A stretch of DNA of 43,580 nucleotides from a virus. Below the pieces are notes generated by a model, which was not told the origin of the DNA, did no database searches, and worked only from the letters and a program-made list of their open reading frames with translations. The position numbers and the translations under genes are program-made. Below are positions 24,982-41,613 of this stretch, piece after piece (the first letter of the stretch is position 1; each line of letters opens with the position of its first letter). Location: positions 1 to 43,580 of IMG/VR virus record IMGVR_UViG_3300047384_000356. The stretch is one strand, 5' to 3'.

Positions 24982-25825
24982 CTTTGATACTCCATTAGAA
25001 AAACATTCTTGTGGAGAAACTGAAGTTTATATCAAACGAGATGATTTGCTGAACGGGAATATGGACTTACCTCCGTGGGCAAAAATGGAAGGTATTCGTA
25101 GAGTTCTTGAAAACGGTGAGTTGTCTAAAGATAAACCAATCATACATTTATCAGTTCGTGTAAGTTATAGTGGATGGGCATTGGCATATATCGGAAAAGA
25201 ATTAGGATTTAAAATAAAGATTGCTTATCCAGATACAAAAGATTACCCACAAAAAGCACTTGAAAAAATAGAAAGTTTAGGAGCAGAACTTGTTCCAATG
25301 AAACCAAACATTCTCAGCATTGTAATTAGTAGTGTTGCAAATCTTGCTAAAAAAGAAAATTACCAAATGATGCCTTATGCGTTTAATCATATAGATTATA
25401 TAAATTATTTCAAAGAAAGAACGCAGAGCATACTGCAAAAGAAAAACTTCAAGCATTTAGTAATAAACGCAGGAAGTGGAGTCACTCCTTCGGGTATTCT
25501 ACAAGGATTTATGAACTTTGATTCGTTCGGAATTCAATCAGAAGAAAACAAAAAGTATGCTCACTTAATTACAACTGCAAGCAAGTCATCTATTGCAAGT
25601 ATGCTAAAGAAGTGGAATGTGTATGATCGCAACCTAACTCAGATACACGAAACACCTCACGACTTTTTTGATGATATGGATTGGTGCGAAACTCCGTTTC
25701 CTTGTAATGGTAATTGGGATAAAAAGGCATGGATATGGTTAAAAGAAAATGGTTGCAAACTAAACGGAGATATACTATTCTATAATCTTGGTGGTGCTTG
25801 TGCATCACACTTTTGGAGACAATGA
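24968..25825 (+). CDS. PLP-dependent enzyme, tryptophan-synthase-beta fold
   Basis: The 285-residue product resembles the ACC deaminase/D-cysteine desulfhydrase branch of fold type II PLP enzymes. It has TPLEK (8-12), VYIKRDDLL (20-28) and the probable PLP Lys39 in WAKMEGIRR. The phosphate-cup motif is AGSGVTPSG (about 168-176), and it ends in LGGACASHFW. The family acts on amino acids or aminocyclopropane acids. An Arg/Ser substitution (LSVRVSYSGWALA) stands where ACC deaminases have the SNHG-type loop, so the substrate is probably different. It overlaps the oxygenase gene by 14 nt and the methyltransferase gene by 4 nt. Confidence 0.75.
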   Translation: MLSFNFDTPLEKHSCGETEVYIKRDDLLNGNMDLPPWAKMEGIRRVLENGELSKDKPIIHLSVRVSYSGWALAYIGKELGFKIKIAYPDTKDYPQKALEKIESLGAELVPMKPNILSIVISSVANLAKKENYQMMPYAFNHIDYINYFKERTQSILQKKNFKHLVINAGSGVTPSGILQGFMNFDSFGIQSEENKKYAHLITTASKSSIASMLKKWNVYDRNLTQIHETPHDFFDDMDWCETPFPCNGNWDKKAWIWLKENGCKLNGDILFYNLGGACASHFWRQ

Positions 25826-27411
25826 AAAAATACTTTTACGAGAAGAATAACTTAACAGAGTGTAAAGTTAATATTACATTCCACGAACTATTGCTAAAGA
25901 ATGGTGAGGAGTTGGAAAATTGGATTGATGAACTTAGAACTTATATTGTGGACACTTGGGATAATGAAGGCCTTCCACCAAGAACAGGTAAAAACGAAAA
26001 AGATATTATAGCAAACTTTAACAAGTTGCCTGGTTACGATGTTTACAAGTTTCAACATACAGATGAAATGGATGGAACAGATACTATCATAAAAAACTTT
26101 AACAAGTTCGCAACCGTAGTGGATCAGTTTTTTCCAACGATGCTTAAAACCAAAATTGGTTCTAGCAAGCATACATCTTGGAGTGTATATGATTGCTTTG
26201 CTAATCCAGAGAAACGAGAAAGTTTTCACACTTGTATGAGAAGAACGGTTCGGAGAGATTCGTTTTATGCTCACGGAAAAACTATTGGTAAAAATGATTT
26301 TGATGTTCCGTGTCCAACACAAAACGGAGAAGAATGGATTCGTAACTTTGTTAAAGAAAAGCATCTTCATCCGAATAATGACTTTTGGATTATAGAGTTG
26401 TTCACAGAAAAAAACTTTGACTCATATGAACAAAATAGTTTGATGCTTACTGCAAAGCAAATCAGAAAATTATACAAAGAAGGTTTGCTTGAATTAAACA
26501 ACATAAGAAATTTAGAAAGAACTGCAAACTTCGGTGACGATATAGAAAATATAAATGATGTAATTATCGAAGACGAAAAAGAAGTACAATTCAAATTCAG
26601 TATTCGTTACTACAACAAGAACTCAAGAATCTTTCCATCTGCAATGGAAGCATTTAAGTTAGGTCTTAGTCAACCAGCAGTAAACTTTCCTCCGTTGACT
26701 GCAAAATATATATACCAAAAATACACAGACCACATTCAAGATAAAAGTGATCTTCATATATATGATCCAAGTGCAGGATGGGGTGGTCGTATTCTCGGTG
26801 CTATGTCAGTACATGATCGTCAAATTCACTACATCGGAACTGACCCAAACACAGACAATTATATAGACGAACTTGGAAAAAGTCGTTACGAATATCTTGC
26901 GGACTTCTTTAATGACAAAACAAATGGAGGTAATCCATTCTTTGGTCATCGTAACACGTACGATGTTTATCAGAACGGAAGTGAAGAAATTCATAAGAAT
27001 CCAAGTTTTCAAAAATACAAAGGTAAACTTGATTTGGTTTTTACAAGTCCACCATATTTCAATCGTGAGCAGTATTCAGCAGATGATACTCAGAGTTTCA
27101 AAAAGTTTCCAGAGTACGCAGATTGGAGAGACAACTTTCTTCGTCCTACTTTGAAGACGGGTGCCGAGTATTTGAAGAACGATAGATATCTACTTTGGAA
27201 TATCGCAGACATCGCAGACGGAGGCGGATTTATGCCATTAGAAAAAGATAGTCGTGATATTCTTGCGGAATATGGACTTGAGTATGTTGAAACTCTTAAA
27301 ATGCTTATGACAACAATGCGTGGTGTTAAAGCAGAAACGGTTAAGAATTGTTGCAAGATAAACGGAGAGTTGCAAAAGTATGAACCTATCTTTGTATTTT
27401 ACAAGAAGTAA
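25822..27411 (+). CDS. DNA amino-methyltransferase (SPPY type) with N-terminal extension
   Basis: I choose the ATG at 25822 (MKKYFYEKNN), overlapping the upstream stop as ATGA. An in-frame TTG 24 nt earlier is open but less likely. The 529-residue product has an unassigned N-terminal half (about 1-260). Its class I methyltransferase domain has AdoMet motif YDPSAGWGGR (about 313) and catalytic motif TSPPYF (about 407-412). An NPPY/SPPY-type motif means methylation of an exocyclic amino group, N6-adenine or N4-cytosine. It is paralogous to the enzyme at 35600-36817, sharing an almost identical block after SPPYF. It is the last gene of the operon. Confidence 0.85.
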   Translation: MKKYFYEKNNLTECKVNITFHELLLKNGEELENWIDELRTYIVDTWDNEGLPPRTGKNEKDIIANFNKLPGYDVYKFQHTDEMDGTDTIIKNFNKFATVVDQFFPTMLKTKIGSSKHTSWSVYDCFANPEKRESFHTCMRRTVRRDSFYAHGKTIGKNDFDVPCPTQNGEEWIRNFVKEKHLHPNNDFWIIELFTEKNFDSYEQNSLMLTAKQIRKLYKEGLLELNNIRNLERTANFGDDIENINDVIIEDEKEVQFKFSIRYYNKNSRIFPSAMEAFKLGLSQPAVNFPPLTAKYIYQKYTDHIQDKSDLHIYDPSAGWGGRILGAMSVHDRQIHYIGTDPNTDNYIDELGKSRYEYLADFFNDKTNGGNPFFGHRNTYDVYQNGSEEIHKNPSFQKYKGKLDLVFTSPPYFNREQYSADDTQSFKKFPEYADWRDNFLRPTLKTGAEYLKNDRYLLWNIADIADGGGFMPLEKDSRDILAEYGLEYVETLKMLMTTMRGVKAETVKNCCKINGELQKYEPIFVFYKK

Positions 27412-32595: not shown

Positions 32596-32671
<76 letters not shown>

Positions 32672-32717
32672 AATGTATTACAATGTATTTATATACATAT
32701 ATACTTATATAAAAAAA

Positions 32718-32808
32718 TGGCGGAGAGAACAGGATTCGAACCTGCGGAAGGATATACTCCTTCAACGGTTTAGCAAACCGTCGCCTTAAGCCACTCAGCC
32801 ATCTCTCC
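32718..32808 (-). tRNA. tRNA-Ser(GCU)
   Basis: The 91-nt class II tRNA has acceptor GGAGAGA / TCTCTCC, anticodon loop TTGCTAA in stem ACGGT/ACCGT, and a long variable arm (GAAGGA..TCCTTC). Its T-loop is TTCGAAT, followed by discriminator G and encoded CCA. It reads AGC/AGU. Confidence 0.95.
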
Positions 32809-32815
32809 TTTAAAA

Positions 32816-32892
32816 TGGCATCCACACGGAGATTCGAACTCCGGTTGCCGGGATGAAAACCCGGTGTCCTGACCTGACTAGACGATGTGGAC
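32816..32892 (-). tRNA. tRNA-Glu(UUC)
   Basis: The 77-nt cloverleaf has acceptor GTCCACA / TGTGGAT (a G-U closes the first pair), anticodon loop TTTTCAT in stem CCGGG/CCCGG, and T-stem CGGAG/CTCCG. Discriminator G and an encoded CCA follow. Confidence 0.95.
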
Positions 32893-32897
32893 ATAAA

Positions 32898-32973
32898 TGG
32901 AGCCACCTGTCGGGATCGAACCGACGACAACCTGATTACAAATCAGGTGCTCTACCAGCTGAGCTAAGGTGGC
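32898..32973 (-). tRNA. tRNA-Thr(UGU)
   Basis: The 76-nt cloverleaf has acceptor GCCACCT / AGGTGGC, D-arm GCTCAGCTGGTAGAGC, and anticodon loop TTTGTAA in stem CCTGA/TCAGG. Discriminator T and an encoded CCA follow. The gap to tRNA-Glu is only 5 nt. Confidence 0.95.
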
Positions 32974-32986
32974 AATAAATTGATTA

Positions 32987-33061
32987 TGGAGCATCGGACA
33001 GGATTCGAACCTGCATGGTAGGGATTTGCAGTCCCTTGCGTCACCATTCCGCCACCGATGC
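32987..33061 (-). tRNA. tRNA-Cys(GCA)
   Basis: The 75-nt cloverleaf has acceptor GCATCGG / CCGATGC, anticodon loop CTGCAAA in stem AGGGA/TCCCT, and T-loop TTCGAAT. Discriminator T and an encoded CCA follow. It is the first tRNA of the cluster. Confidence 0.95.
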
Positions 33062-33192: not shown

Positions 33193-33801
33193 CTAAAAAG
33201 AAGAATTCTTGAAAAGAAAAGGTTTCCATTCTTCACGAACTACATTCCCAACTTCATAAAATGGTTTTGGTGGACTTGCTTTCAATATATCTCCTTTGTA
33301 ATCGTAATATGGAAATATACTGCCCTTGCGTGAATTACACTTTACGCAGGTTAAAGTAAGATTGAAGTAATCATTGTCACCACCTTTACTCTTGGGTTTA
33401 ATGTGCTCAATGGTTAACTTTCCTTGAGGAAAATGTTCACCACATATTTGACATCGTCCTTCGTATTTTTTGTAAAGGTATTTAAGTGATGGTTTTCTTT
33501 TTGCATTATAGGTAAAATTTGCCGTTGTAAGAAGAATAGTTGGGACGGGAATAACATGATTGACTGATCTAATAAAAGGTTGGTTTTTGTAGAATCCATG
33601 TTTATACTCCATCCAAGTATTCCAGTCGCAGGTATTTCCATCACTTGCTACCGCAACAACTTTTGGACGAGTTTTGTGATAACGTTCTTTAGCACCCATT
33701 AATTTTTTTAAACCTTCTTTTACAGATGTTACATTCAAAGGTGTCCAGTAATGGGTCAGTAAAAGAACCAAATTATCAGAACTGCTTACATATTCATACA
33801 T
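33193..33801 (-). CDS. HNH endonuclease
   Basis: The 202-residue product has a C-terminal HNH nuclease with a zinc-binding frame: CQICGEHF, LTIEHIKPKSKGGDNDYFNL with the catalytic His and Asn, and CVKCNSRKG. An N-terminal part of about 115 residues contains a WNTWMEYKHGFY segment of unknown role. HNH enzymes in phages act as homing endonucleases, in packaging or in nicking. A free-standing gene beside a tRNA cluster fits a mobile homing type. Its promoter places the start 7 nt after the -10 box. Confidence 0.88.
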   Translation of the reverse strand: MYEYVSSSDNLVLLLTHYWTPLNVTSVKEGLKKLMGAKERYHKTRPKVVAVASDGNTCDWNTWMEYKHGFYKNQPFIRSVNHVIPVPTILLTTANFTYNAKRKPSLKYLYKKYEGRCQICGEHFPQGKLTIEHIKPKSKGGDNDYFNLTLTCVKCNSRKGSIFPYYDYKGDILKASPPKPFYEVGNVVREEWKPFLFKNSSF

Positions 33802-34304: not shown

Positions 34305-34361
34305 AATACTTGCTAAACTAAAAATAATCTACAATAATAATATTAAACCCTATAAAAACTT

Positions 34362-34547
34362 ATGAAAACATCAAAAGAACTATATGAAGAAATCAAGTCA
34401 CTTTTTAATGACTTTGAGGAAAACCATGAAAAAAACGCAGAGTCTGGAACCAAAGTATCGGGTACCCGTGCAAGAAAAGCAATTGGTGAAATTAAAAAAC
34501 TTGCAACGGAATACAGAAAAGCATCGGTCGCCGAATCTAAATCATAA
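34362..34547 (+). CDS. Histone H1/Hc1-like DNA-binding protein
   Basis: The 61-residue product has the plan of bacterial Hc1-type histone-like proteins: a short N-terminal helix (SKELYEEIKSLFNDFEEN), then GTKVSGTRARKAIGEIKK and LATEYRKASVAESK. That last block matches the conserved Hc1 family core seen in Bacteroidota and Chlamydiae (from memory of the family). It lacks the long Lys/Ala-rich C-terminal tail of chlamydial Hc1. It likely binds DNA without sequence specificity and could compact phage DNA or remodel the host nucleoid. Confidence 0.75.
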   Translation: MKTSKELYEEIKSLFNDFEENHEKNAESGTKVSGTRARKAIGEIKKLATEYRKASVAESKS

Positions 34548-34565
34548 TAGAATAGGAGTAAAAAA

Positions 34566-34820
34566 ATGACAACAGAAAATGATATTAAAAAAGAAATAAG
34601 TGTTGAAACTTCTGTATCAACTAAAAAGAAAAAACTTGTGGTAAATTGGCCAACTGGTAAATTTAGTATATCTGATTTAGAGCAAGCACATCCATCTGCC
34701 GTACCCATTACCTTAAGATTTCGTGTTAAGAAAGCACTTGAATCAGGTACAATTCAACCTGCTGGTAAAATTGAGGGTGAAATCGGTAGACCCACTTTGT
34801 TGTTTGAAAAAGTTAATTAA
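34566..34820 (+). CDS. Small basic protein, possibly nucleic-acid binding
   Basis: The 84-residue product has a charged N-terminus followed by a KKKKLVVNWPTGKFSISDLE segment, and VPITLRFRVKKALESGTIQ with a GEIGRPTLLF end. The TLRFRVKKALESG stretch looks like a short helix-turn-helix or winged-helix piece, as in small phage proteins of the same layout. A good Shine-Dalgarno AGGAG lies 8 nt before the ATG. It follows the histone-like gene by 18 nt and is probably co-transcribed with it. Confidence 0.6.
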   Translation: MTTENDIKKEISVETSVSTKKKKLVVNWPTGKFSISDLEQAHPSAVPITLRFRVKKALESGTIQPAGKIEGEIGRPTLLFEKVN

Positions 34821-34835: not shown

Positions 34836-35600
34836 ATGACTTTCCAAAACTTAGATTCAAATTTTGAGAAAAAAGCAGCCGCCGGTTCTCAACAAAATCA
34901 AAATATTTCTCCCGAAGAAGCACACATGAAGCAAACTCAACCTGTTGAGGAGAAAGAGAAGTATGAATCTAAGATGTCTGAATCGTTAAAAGGTGGATTA
35001 CTTTCAGTATTCCAAAAACAATTATCTAAGGTAAGAACCGAGAAAAAAAATGATGATTCATTTGATACAATTAATATTACTTCGGATGACATTGTAAAGT
35101 CAAGTTCTACTACTGCACCTAACAAAGAAGTTTCAGAAGAAGAAATTAATGATTTGCTCAAACCCTCTCAGACCAACAAATCTTCTATTGAAGAAGAGTT
35201 GTCTAAAGCAGAGAATATTGAAATAGTTACTGAAAAAACTCAAGTCAAAAAGAAGGAAGAAAAAACTGAAACAAGTTTTTCAACCGATAGAGTAAGATAC
35301 GAAGATAATAATCCAGTAACTGAAAAACGTGCTAAGTTAGAAGACGCAGTTTCTCAAATTGCCGTCCTACGGGCTGCCAACGGAGAAGCAACTACATTAG
35401 GTACAGACGGAAAGCAAATGTATGACGATGAAATTTCTTATCATCTTCAGCAACATAAACTCAAAAAGCAACAGGCAAAACAAGAAGGAAACTCAAGTGC
35501 AGAAACTGTGTTAAATTACGATGAACAACCAGTTAAAGACGAGAACTCTGATCCTTCTGCACCACGTGAATCTGAGTTGGATGGTTCTGATATCTTCTGA
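34836..35600 (+). CDS. Low-complexity acidic protein, scaffold-like
   Basis: The 254-residue product is rich in Glu, Lys, Ser, Gln and Asn, with predicted disorder and coiled-coil segments (EEEINDLLK, IEEELSKAENIE, HLQQHKLKKQQAKQE). It has no hydrophobic core domain. A conserved-looking island is KRAKLEDAVSQIAVLRAANG (about 166-185). No family is recognised. Composition would suit a scaffold, a head accessory protein or an RNA-binding protein. Its stop overlaps the start of the methyltransferase gene (TGATG). Confidence 0.55.
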   Translation: MTFQNLDSNFEKKAAAGSQQNQNISPEEAHMKQTQPVEEKEKYESKMSESLKGGLLSVFQKQLSKVRTEKKNDDSFDTINITSDDIVKSSSTTAPNKEVSEEEINDLLKPSQTNKSSIEEELSKAENIEIVTEKTQVKKKEEKTETSFSTDRVRYEDNNPVTEKRAKLEDAVSQIAVLRAANGEATTLGTDGKQMYDDEISYHLQQHKLKKQQAKQEGNSSAETVLNYDEQPVKDENSDPSAPRESELDGSDIF

Positions 35601-36817
35601 TGTTAGAAAACTACTTTAAGAAATTCTACAACATGAAACCATATCTCCTCATTGAAGAGGACGAGTGGAAAAAAATCATGCAAAAGTATGAAAAAGAAGA
35701 TGTTGTAGAAGAACTTGCCAAAGTGTTACACACTTATCCTGCTCCTTTACCAGAGATTACCGATAAGCAAACTCTTGATAGTTTGAACAAGTTAAAGGGA
35801 ATAAAGCACAACGATGTTCTTGTAGAAAAAAAGTGGTTTCCTCGTAACGAAAGAAAAAGCAATTATCACCTTAACTATAATGGTTCTCAGTATCTATTAA
35901 AAAGAAACAATTCAGGTAACAATGCTTCTAACCCGTTTCATGTAGAAACTCGTTGGAAAGTAGATTGGACAAGAACACCGAGCGGCTGGAAGACTTGGCA
36001 AACGGTGAAAGGAATCAAAACAATCGTTCGTGCTTATTGGACATTAGATAAAGTTCTTAATCGTGTTGATGTTAATACTCTTCGTGTTGCTACGACTCTT
36101 CGTAAGTATGTCGCATCACAATTTAAACCGGCAGTAGCAAAAGCATTTTATGATCACTTTCAAAGCAAGAATGTTTTAGACTTTAGTGCCGGTTGGGGAG
36201 ATAGATTAGCAGGATTTTATACAGGTGAAACCACAGAGCATTATGTTGGAATTGATCCCAATGCACTTAATCACCCCAATTACCAAAAACAAATTCAGTT
36301 CTATGAAAAGTATTCTACCTTTTTTGAACAGAATAGAAAAGCAGACTTAATAGAAAGTCCTGCCGAAGACGTAGATTACTCCCAATATGAAAATTACTTT
36401 GATACGGTGTTTACAAGTCCACCTTATTTTAATACAGAAAAGTATTCAGAAGATGATACTCAATCGTGGGTGAGATACAAAAAGATAGATGACTGGAACG
36501 AGAGATTTCTTCACACCACACTTGGTAAAATAATTCCGACAATAAAAAAGAATGGTATTCTTGCGGTAAACATAGCAGATGTATTTAATGCTCCTATCAA
36601 CGACTATGTTGAAATTACGAACCCGATGAACGACTTTATTAAATCAAAGGGTCTTGAATATCTTGGTTGCATTGGAATGGAAATGACGAAACGATTTAAT
36701 TCAGGTGGTGCGGGTAATGCCAAGAGTGAATATTTTTCGGAGGACCTAAAAGAAATAACCGAGGAGACTAAAGATATTGCGTTTGCAGAACCGATTTGGA
36801 TTTGGAAAAAGAATTGA
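35600..36817 (+). CDS. DNA amino-methyltransferase (SPPY type)
   Basis: The 405-residue product is a class I amino-methyltransferase with AdoMet motif DFSAGWGDR (about 193-201) and catalytic TSPPYF (about 271-276). After the catalytic motif it shares an N-x-E-x-YS-x-DDTQS block and a W-x-x-x-FL-x-x-TL pattern with the enzyme at 25822-27411, so the two are paralogues. The N-terminal part differs and carries basic segments likely to contact DNA. The predicted product is N6-methyladenine or N4-methylcytosine. There is no linked restriction nuclease. The start overlaps the upstream stop. Confidence 0.85.
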   Translation: MLENYFKKFYNMKPYLLIEEDEWKKIMQKYEKEDVVEELAKVLHTYPAPLPEITDKQTLDSLNKLKGIKHNDVLVEKKWFPRNERKSNYHLNYNGSQYLLKRNNSGNNASNPFHVETRWKVDWTRTPSGWKTWQTVKGIKTIVRAYWTLDKVLNRVDVNTLRVATTLRKYVASQFKPAVAKAFYDHFQSKNVLDFSAGWGDRLAGFYTGETTEHYVGIDPNALNHPNYQKQIQFYEKYSTFFEQNRKADLIESPAEDVDYSQYENYFDTVFTSPPYFNTEKYSEDDTQSWVRYKKIDDWNERFLHTTLGKIIPTIKKNGILAVNIADVFNAPINDYVEITNPMNDFIKSKGLEYLGCIGMEMTKRFNSGGAGNAKSEYFSEDLKEITEETKDIAFAEPIWIWKKN

Positions 36818-39105: not shown

Positions 39106-41613
39106 ATGTACCAAAATATATTCGTAAGCAAAAAGGACAACACAATTTATTTGTGGGATGATAAACAAGGTTTAGTAACCTACAAAAACAAACCATACGC
39201 ATACAGAAAGTCTCCGAACGGAATGTATCGTAGTATGTATGGTGACAAGTTAGAAAAGGTAACTAAGTATCGTTATGAAGACGAAGGTTTGTTTGAATCA
39301 GATGTTCCTATTGAAACACGTAACTTAATTGACCTTTACGAAGATGACGATGAACCAAGTACAGGTCATTGCGTATTAAACTTCGATATTGAGGTTAGTA
39401 TGGAAGGAGAGTTGCCCGACACAGAAAGAGCAAATAATCCTATTACTTCCATTGCGTATCACGATAGTTGTTCTAATAATTATGTGGTTCTTGTTTTAGA
39501 TAAAGAAGATAAAATCACCGACTATTCTAATGATGAAGTTTCGGTTTATTCTTATGATACAGAACGAGCAATGCTTGAACACTTTCTTGATTTTTATCAA
39601 GAGATTAGTCCGACAATATTGACCGGTTGGAACATTGATTACTTTGACGTTCCTTATTTGTATCGTAGACTCGCAAGAGTTTTAGGGCAAGGTGATGCAA
39701 ATCGTTTGAGTCCTATTGGACACGCATATTATCATCAGTTCAAGAAACGTATTGTTATTGCAGGTGTTAGTTGCTTGGATTATCTTGCGTTATACAAGAA
39801 CTTTACATTTAGTGTTGAACCAAGTTATCGTTTGGATGCAATTGGTCGTAAAGAAGTTGGTATTGGTAAAGTTGAATACGAAGGTAATCTTGATGATTTG
39901 TTTTCACAAGATATTGAGAAGTTCATTGAATACAATTTGAACGACGTAAAGATTGTTGTTGAGATTGATAGAAAGATGGAACTCATTGAATTGACTCGTA
40001 GCATTTGTCACGTTGGACACGTTCCGTATGAAGACATTTTATTTTCGTCTCGTTATCTTGAAGGTGCATTGCTTACTTATCTTCGCAGACACAATCTTGT
40101 CGCACCAAATAAAGACCCAAATGGTCGTGAACGATTCAATGAAATTAAAGGTGACGAATCCAAGAAGTTTAGTGGAGCATATGTGGCTGCACCGACACCT
40201 GGCAAATACAAGTGGGTGTTTGACTTGGATTTAACTTCTCTGTATCCATCTATTATTATGTCCACGAATATTTCACCAGAAACCAAAGTGGGTGTTGTTG
40301 ATAATTGGAGTCCCGAGAAGTTTTGTGACGGAGAACAAACCGAAGTTGGATTTCGTGGAGAAACATATTCAGCAGATGAGTTCAAGGCATTTCTAAAAGA
40401 TAACAATCTTTCTATCAGTAGCAACGGAGTTATGTATACCAAGAATAAGGTCGGACTTATTCCTGCGATTCTTGATCAATGGTTCAACCAACGTGTTGAG
40501 TTCAAGAACAAAATGAAAGAGTATGGTAACTCAGGTGACGATGCAAAGTATGTGTTCTATAAAAGACGTCAGCACGTGCAAAAGATTCTTCTTAATTCGT
40601 TGTATGGTGTTCTTGGTTTGCCTATCTTTCGGTTTTATGATGTGGACAATGCAGAAGCAGTTACGACCACAGGTGTGTCCGTGATTAAGTTTAGTCGCAA
40701 GATTGCGAATCACTATTACAATAAAACACTTGGTGATACAGAAGATCATTGTATATACATTGATACCGACTCGGTTTTCTTTTCAGCATTGCCTATCGTA
40801 GAAAAAACGATGCCTCACGTTGATGTAAAGAACGATGACGAAATGGCAACTGCAATTCTTGAAGTTGCGGGTGATGTACAAAACTTCATCAATAAAAGTT
40901 ATGATGTTATGGCAAAACGTTTCTTCAACATTGAAGAGCATCGTTATGACATTAAACAAGAAGTGATTGCCAAAGCAAGTATGTGGTTGGCAAAGAAACG
41001 ATATGCACAATGGATTATCAACAACAACGGTGTTACTTGTGACGAATTGGAAGTTAAAGGTCTTGATGTTGTGCGTAGTAGTTTTCCAACTCGGTTTCGT
41101 AAGTTTATGACGGAAATCCTCAAAGATATTTTGAAGGATGTACCGAAAGAAGAAATTGATGAAAAGATTGTTACACTCAAAAAGCAAGTTAAGAACGAGT
41201 CGGTTGATGATATTGCAAAGACGAGTGCAGTTAAAAATATATCCAAGTATGTAAAGATGATGGATAAAGGTGCAGTTATGGGTGAGTGTGCAAAAAGTAC
41301 ACCCGCACACGTTAAATCAAGTATCATTCACAATCAGTTTCTCAAAAAGTTTAAAATACAAAGTGAACCTATTCGTAATGGTGAAAAAATTAAGTGGATT
41401 TATTTGAAGAACAATGAACTTGGTTTAGATGCACTTGCGTTTCGTGGTTATGAAGACCCACCACAACTTATGGAGTTTATTGAGAAGTATGCAGATAAAG
41501 ATAAATTGTTTGAACGAGAACTTGAAGGAAAGTTGCGTGACTTTTACGATGCACTTAGTTGGGACTTTGCAAGTGAGAATCTTGCAACTGCTCAAAAGTT
41601 TTTTGCTTTCTAA
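39106..41613 (+). CDS. 43: Family B DNA polymerase, T4 gp43 type
   Basis: The 835-residue replicative polymerase has a proofreading 3'-5' exonuclease with FDIE (Exo I, about 93-96), TGWNIDYFDVPYL (Exo II) and YNLNDVKIV (Exo III). The polymerase part has motif A DLTSLYPSII (about 375-384), motif B KILLNSLYGVLG, and motif C YIDTDSVF (about 551-558). It is somewhat shorter than T4 gp43 (898). The sequence is intact with no intein. Its near-leaderless promoter is shared in sequence with the sugar block. The stop overlaps the start of the next methyltransferase (TAATGG). Confidence 0.95.
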   Translation: MYQNIFVSKKDNTIYLWDDKQGLVTYKNKPYAYRKSPNGMYRSMYGDKLEKVTKYRYEDEGLFESDVPIETRNLIDLYEDDDEPSTGHCVLNFDIEVSMEGELPDTERANNPITSIAYHDSCSNNYVVLVLDKEDKITDYSNDEVSVYSYDTERAMLEHFLDFYQEISPTILTGWNIDYFDVPYLYRRLARVLGQGDANRLSPIGHAYYHQFKKRIVIAGVSCLDYLALYKNFTFSVEPSYRLDAIGRKEVGIGKVEYEGNLDDLFSQDIEKFIEYNLNDVKIVVEIDRKMELIELTRSICHVGHVPYEDILFSSRYLEGALLTYLRRHNLVAPNKDPNGRERFNEIKGDESKKFSGAYVAAPTPGKYKWVFDLDLTSLYPSIIMSTNISPETKVGVVDNWSPEKFCDGEQTEVGFRGETYSADEFKAFLKDNNLSISSNGVMYTKNKVGLIPAILDQWFNQRVEFKNKMKEYGNSGDDAKYVFYKRRQHVQKILLNSLYGVLGLPIFRFYDVDNAEAVTTTGVSVIKFSRKIANHYYNKTLGDTEDHCIYIDTDSVFFSALPIVEKTMPHVDVKNDDEMATAILEVAGDVQNFINKSYDVMAKRFFNIEEHRYDIKQEVIAKASMWLAKKRYAQWIINNNGVTCDELEVKGLDVVRSSFPTRFRKFMTEILKDILKDVPKEEIDEKIVTLKKQVKNESVDDIAKTSAVKNISKYVKMMDKGAVMGECAKSTPAHVKSSIIHNQFLKKFKIQSEPIRNGEKIKWIYLKNNELGLDALAFRGYEDPPQLMEFIEKYADKDKLFERELEGKLRDFYDALSWDFASENLATAQKFFAF

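Follow-up and report, generated by a model that had tools for sequence, protein, structure and literature searches.

The window, by which we mean the whole stretch of DNA analyzed, is a virus record of 43,580 bases, and it carries a single gene of the Hc1 family (Pfam PF07432). The features discussed here are collected in Table 1. The original prediction had placed an Hc1-like gene lacking a Lys/Ala tail at exactly these positions, and the open reading frame (ORF) proved to be real: its product contains the quoted core, with GEIKK and LATEYRK contiguous, and stops at residue 61 with the ending ESKS, so that a basic Lys/Ala-rich tail is indeed absent. When the gene was compared with seven close relatives, the pooled difference was 0.54 per synonymous site and 0.13 per non-synonymous site, synonymous sites being near saturation in most of the seven pairs. 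Judged by these values, the gene is under purifying selection. An antisense ORF at 34343-34708 was considered as a gene and rejected because its frame is broken in most relatives; seven relatives had 1 to 7 in-register stops, a count that includes the terminal stop and takes its register from the Hc1 start, so that indels could add stops.

Table 1. Features of the window; positions are counted from its first base.
Feature	Position	Strand	Remarks
DNA-methyltransferase-like ORF	25798-27411	+	33% identical to the ORF at 35600-36817 over part
Five-tRNA cluster	32596-33061	-	Ala, Ser, Glu, Thr, Cys
HNH endonuclease ORF	33193-33801		adjoins the tRNA cluster
Hc1-family gene	34362-34547	+	61 aa, ATG to TAA; Pfam match and IMG/VR relatives
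Predicted helix 1, acidic half	34371-34445	+	codons 4-28; N-half net charge -4 (window protein)
Predicted helix 2, basic half	34452-34541	+	codons 31-60; net charge +6
Core of basic stripe	34467-34517	+	codons 36-52: R36, R38, K39, K45, K46, R52
Predicted winged-helix protein	34566-34820	+	84 aa; starts 18 bases past the Hc1 stop
DNA-methyltransferase-like ORF	35600-36817	+	see 25798-27411
T4-type (family B) DNA polymerase	39106-41613	+	4.6 kb downstream of Hc1, same strand

A Pfam profile search of the protein returned PF07432 with an E value of 1.9e-17 and 63.3 bits against a cut-off of 23.5, the alignment spanning model positions 1-57 of 57, and the match was recovered again when the whole virus record was searched. 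Membership in the Hc1 family is thus borne out over the full model. The phage setting was confirmed as well, by the virus record itself and by the T4-type capsid protein Gp23, which is present in 8 of the 12 related long records that were searched. The PHROGs library held no family for the protein below an E value of 0.15. The best PDB sequence match, to LptB (E = 0.0046), had no stretch that was significant alone and was taken as chance, as were weak, below-cut-off Pfam matches of Hc1 proteins to other families.

AlphaFold2, run with 52 sequences, predicted a helical hairpin with helices at residues 4-28 and 31-60 (pLDDT 96.9, pTM 0.80). Charge is divided along the chain: the median in the main phage group is -4 for the N-terminal half and +6 for the C-terminal half, and the whole window protein has a net charge of only +2. 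Fourteen residues are invariant across the 52 phage sequences, including K31, R38, K39, K45, K46, R52 and K53, and a basic pair recurs every seven residues along helix 2. In an alignment of 102 proteins from phages, Marinimicrobia and Bacteroidota, positions R38, K39 and R52 always hold a basic residue, and position K45 does so except in 3 of the 5 distant phage proteins. The main phage and Marinimicrobia type can be recognized by T49 (rarely S) and Y51. We infer that the basic stripe faces solvent, and the stripe hints that the protein may belong to the nucleoid-associated class.

Eukaryotic linker histone H1 has a winged-helix globular domain. In contrast, the phage protein is predicted to form a two-helix hairpin without strands, and none of the linker-histone Pfam families matched it at E values up to 1. 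The name “histone H1-like” is misleading for these proteins, as neither the winged helix of H1 nor a Lys/Ala tail is present.

The two-helix hairpin is a generic fold. A Foldseek search of the Hc1 model against PDB and BFVD gave nothing at an E value of 0.001 or better, and VIA-align returned a mixed list of helical hairpins with a best Z of 8.8. Among the better matches was 4wf9_V (Z 7.7, rmsd 1.8 over 59 residues), one of the ribosomal large-subunit chains that we take to be uL29, and a phage protein named L29 turned up in the viral fold search. These matches raise the idea that the uL29-like shape serves RNA, as an RNA-binding or ribosome-associated hairpin, and not DNA. We consider this highly improbable: helical hairpins often reach such Z values, no ribosomal Pfam family matched the protein at E values up to 1, and its sequence signature is that of Hc1.

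In IMG/VR, a relative is encoded by 171 of the 196 stretches that matched the search pattern, giving at least 171 relatives, more than chance would explain. The best 80 of the 171 were kept; adding the window and six loci of annotated records gives 87 loci. These encode 58 distinct proteins of 54-62 residues; in each of the 87 loci the ATG closest to the match was used as the start codon, which makes the N-terminal lengths approximate. A tblastn search of 50,697 phage records matched 26 of them at E values up to 10. The matches included the 634-kb phage LR745206.1 (E = 4e-10), Flavobacterium immuto phages (4e-8) and a 462-kb phage (1e-4), as well as Lak phages and Synechococcus phage S-SRM01, for which the E values are too weak on their own. 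When whole records were searched with the profile, LR745206, LR756500, LR756502, Lak-A2 and S-SRM01 scored over the PF07432 cut-off; the immuto gene reached 21 bits in the whole record, just below the cut-off, and 23.5 bits as a protein, at the cut-off. In the isolated phage S-SRM01 the gene is annotated as “histone H1”, and its product is likewise a PF07432 member, but in the tree it sits, unlike the window protein, on a long branch close to the Bacteroidota type. LR745206.1 carries two Hc1 genes of different types, at 246465-246620 and 567427-567558 (L082 and L172), one resembling that of the window and the other resembling Bacteroidota chromosomal Hc1.

Phage-encoded PF07432 has been described in large aquatic phages, the moraphages, with four complete genomes (PMC12619734, 2025). 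That report calls the gene histone H1-like and proposes genome compaction. Moraphages are jumbo phages, for the most part assigned to Bacteroidota hosts; their gene is likened to that of the window by description. It was the only report of PF07432 in phages that we found in the open-license literature. Because phage PF07432 is already in print, the window gene adds a member to a known kind.

To place the phage proteins among cellular ones, a set of 84,980 species, each represented by a single genome, was scanned with alignment A2. The scan yielded 27 loci, 19 of them titled Marinimicrobia or Neomarinimicrobiota. The ending YRK(A/S)SVA(G/S)E is present in 21 of the 27 cellular proteins, in one of which the frame continues beyond it, adjoining unread bases. 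PF07432 itself occurs in 14 of 149 genomes of the phylum Marinimicrobia and in 177 of 296 genomes of the Bacteroidota, the phylum of a genome titled Flavobacteriales (G003). Tail-less chromosomal Hc1 genes, found in part of the Marinimicrobia (loci within L109-L132), are the closest relatives of the phage type in cells. Two of these loci were read, and in both the neighbors look chromosomal: from the translations, we take those of L115 to be an ammonium transporter, PII and a dihydrodipicolinate-synthase-like gene, and those of L123 are presumably HtpG-like, universal-stress-like and membrane genes. Like the phage type, Hc1 of Marinimicrobia (Fidelibacterota) lacks a tail; it has 58 residues and the common signature GE(I/V/L)KKLVTxYRK(A/S)SVA, and it ends in AGE or ASE where the phage type ends in AESK. 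We found nothing on Marinimicrobia Hc1 in the open-license literature. Bacteroidota chromosomal Hc1 has the length and the R36, R38, K39, K45, R52 core of the phage type, but it has Q and I (25 of 25 examined) where the phage type has T49 and Y51.

These groups separated in a tree of 108 proteins, although with 62 columns the tree has few columns, long branches and unsettled bootstrap values. The window lies within a set of 48 rows, 45 from phages and 3 cell-binned (96/83), and the Marinimicrobia chromosomal type makes up a single clade, with 18 rows (99/97). The Bacteroidota rows group apart from these, together with one phage, LR756500 (94/96). The three cell-binned rows (L106-L108) could stem from phage contigs that ended up in genome bins. 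Support for the deepest split is weak (79/80), and the tree leaves the direction of transfer unsettled. As far as the sequences allow us to judge, the nearest cellular kin of the window's phage group are Marinimicrobia and not the kin that had been expected. The suggestion that the gene reflects a Bacteroidota host did not hold: since the window protein falls together with phage and Marinimicrobia proteins and outside the chromosomal type of the Bacteroidota, it is not a marker of such a host. In a search for the host, a megablast comparison of 23.6 kb from the window with phages gave no match, and of 149 Marinimicrobia genomes only 2 had matches to the DNA polymerase, which were fragmented (best E 9.1e-16, 29% identity). 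Shine-Dalgarno sequences were present at 8 of 41 starts versus 6.7% at random positions, and these figures, like promoter motif counts, were not decisive for the host.

Chlamydial HctA has a basic, Lys/Ala-rich C-terminal tail, and the DNA-binding activity of chlamydial Hc1 is assigned mainly to this tail. The N-terminal domain of the chlamydial protein belongs to the same Pfam family as the phage protein, but only the chlamydial protein has the tail, and the phage protein matched the HctA model weakly (NCBIfam NF051889, 121 positions; 16.9 bits against a cut-off of 100, model positions 4-58). No long Lys/Ala tail was found in the phage proteins (54-62 residues), those of Marinimicrobia (58 residues) or those extracted from Bacteroidota (57-67 residues). 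Two further copies from huge phages are longer, at 71 and 78 residues, because they are extended at the N-terminal side. Thus, describing the window protein as a minimal form is misleading, since all relatives examined, in all three groups, are tail-less. As sampled here (phage, Marinimicrobia and Bacteroidota sequences), the tail-less form is the ordinary state of the family, and the tail would therefore be a special feature of chlamydial HctA.

Immediately downstream of Hc1, the predicted 84-residue protein directly adjoins it in all 9 loci of the window's neighborhood type. Its model is a winged helix (pLDDT 75.6 overall) whose best fold match is an ArsR-type regulator (Z 8.7, rmsd 2.3 over 61 residues), and it had no Pfam match at E values up to 1 and no convincing PHROG. 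The protein carries an ITLRFRVKKA motif and is present in 18 IMG/VR loci; eight distant relatives lie in records without a PF07432 match, which are possibly fragments. Among the matches listed, the DNA polymerase farther downstream is nearest to the one from Microcystis phage Mel-JY01 (47% identity), a phage with no PF07432 match, and only ~32% identical to those of the other T4-like phages.

The 87 loci were sorted into 16 neighborhood types. The upstream neighbor is on the same strand as Hc1 in 86 of 86 loci and the downstream neighbor in 78 of 86. In 35 of the 87 loci, a gene for replication or nucleotide metabolism (polymerase, clamp loader, DnaB, UvsX, exonuclease or RNR) lies at most six genes away, and in the other 52 no recognized replication gene was found within that distance. 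Chaperone genes (GroEL, GroES, Hsp20) are within six genes in 14 loci, and genes of either kind in 43. GroEL is the direct neighbor in 6 of the 87 loci. These counts are descriptive only, since they include many closely related loci and have no background control beside them.

A head maturation protease is the direct neighbor of Hc1 in 7 of the 87 loci, as might be expected if Hc1 were a virion protein, packaged with the genome to neutralize or condense DNA in the head like the internal proteins of some large viruses. Packaging has been proposed for moraphage Hc1 in PMC12619734, and Hc1 is present in phages with very large genomes (462 to 642 kb). We regard this role as unlikely, given the 35 loci near replication or nucleotide-metabolism genes and given that the close kin of the protein are encoded on the chromosomes of Marinimicrobia, where nothing is packaged. 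Moreover, in the record of the nearest relative, Hc1 (38.0-38.2 kb) and Gp23 (125.6-126.8 kb) are ~87 kb apart on opposite strands.

The position of the gene leads us to favor an intracellular role near replication over packaging. Our main reading, with a probability of about 0.55, is that the gene product is a nucleoid-associated protein of the Hc1 family, without a tail, that acts around replication on DNA inside the cell. From its sequence, the protein probably binds DNA inside infected cells. Helix 2 would lay the conserved basic stripe (R36, R38/K39, K45/K46, R52/K53) along the DNA backbone, and hairpins would pair with one another, perhaps via the acidic helix 1. Many copies could then coat or bridge DNA in the cell, either that of the replicating phage or that of the host. 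Gene position suggests that Hc1 would be expressed with replication genes, not capsid genes. Its action would resemble that of a small HU-like architectural protein, not that of a eukaryotic linker histone. Several points weigh against this reading: the tail to which chlamydial Hc1 mainly owes its DNA binding is missing here, the hairpin is a generic fold, the net charge is only +2, 52 of the 87 loci show no recognized replication gene close by, and the protease next to Hc1 in 7 loci would also suit packaging.

Alternatively, the protein may coat or compact the host nucleoid and shut down host transcription. Chlamydial Hc1 represses synthesis in E. coli, according to work cited in PMC12619734. 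PF07432 is found in only 38 of 196 genomes of the order of G003, and therefore many such hosts would meet Hc1 as a foreign protein. Such a takeover seems doubtful to us, if somewhat less so than packaging: the cited repression belongs to a tailed protein, no host-specific signal is present in the Hc1 sequence, and conservation across phages with different hosts would argue for a host-independent target.

Going beyond the reading of an intracellular, replication-associated DNA-binding protein, we tentatively speculate that unrelated large phages share a long-lived lineage of tail-less Hc1 that organizes replicating viral DNA as viral chromatin and has been exchanged with Marinimicrobia chromosomes, with some huge phages keeping two specialized types. 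If our reading is right, a protein of 55-62 residues, conserved across many phage lineages, would make the question of phage “chromatin” directly testable; the lineages with Hc1 include isolates with a cultured Flavobacterium host.

DNA-methyltransferase-like ORFs, of which the window has two, lie within six genes of Hc1 in 16 of the 87 loci, in two neighborhood types, and in a type other than that of the window a relative is directly upstream of Hc1. The methyltransferase-like ORFs near Hc1 share ~31% identity in the aligned part, which is half the protein, and a link between them and Hc1 is possible. The window also holds a cluster of five tRNA genes with an HNH endonuclease ORF beside it.
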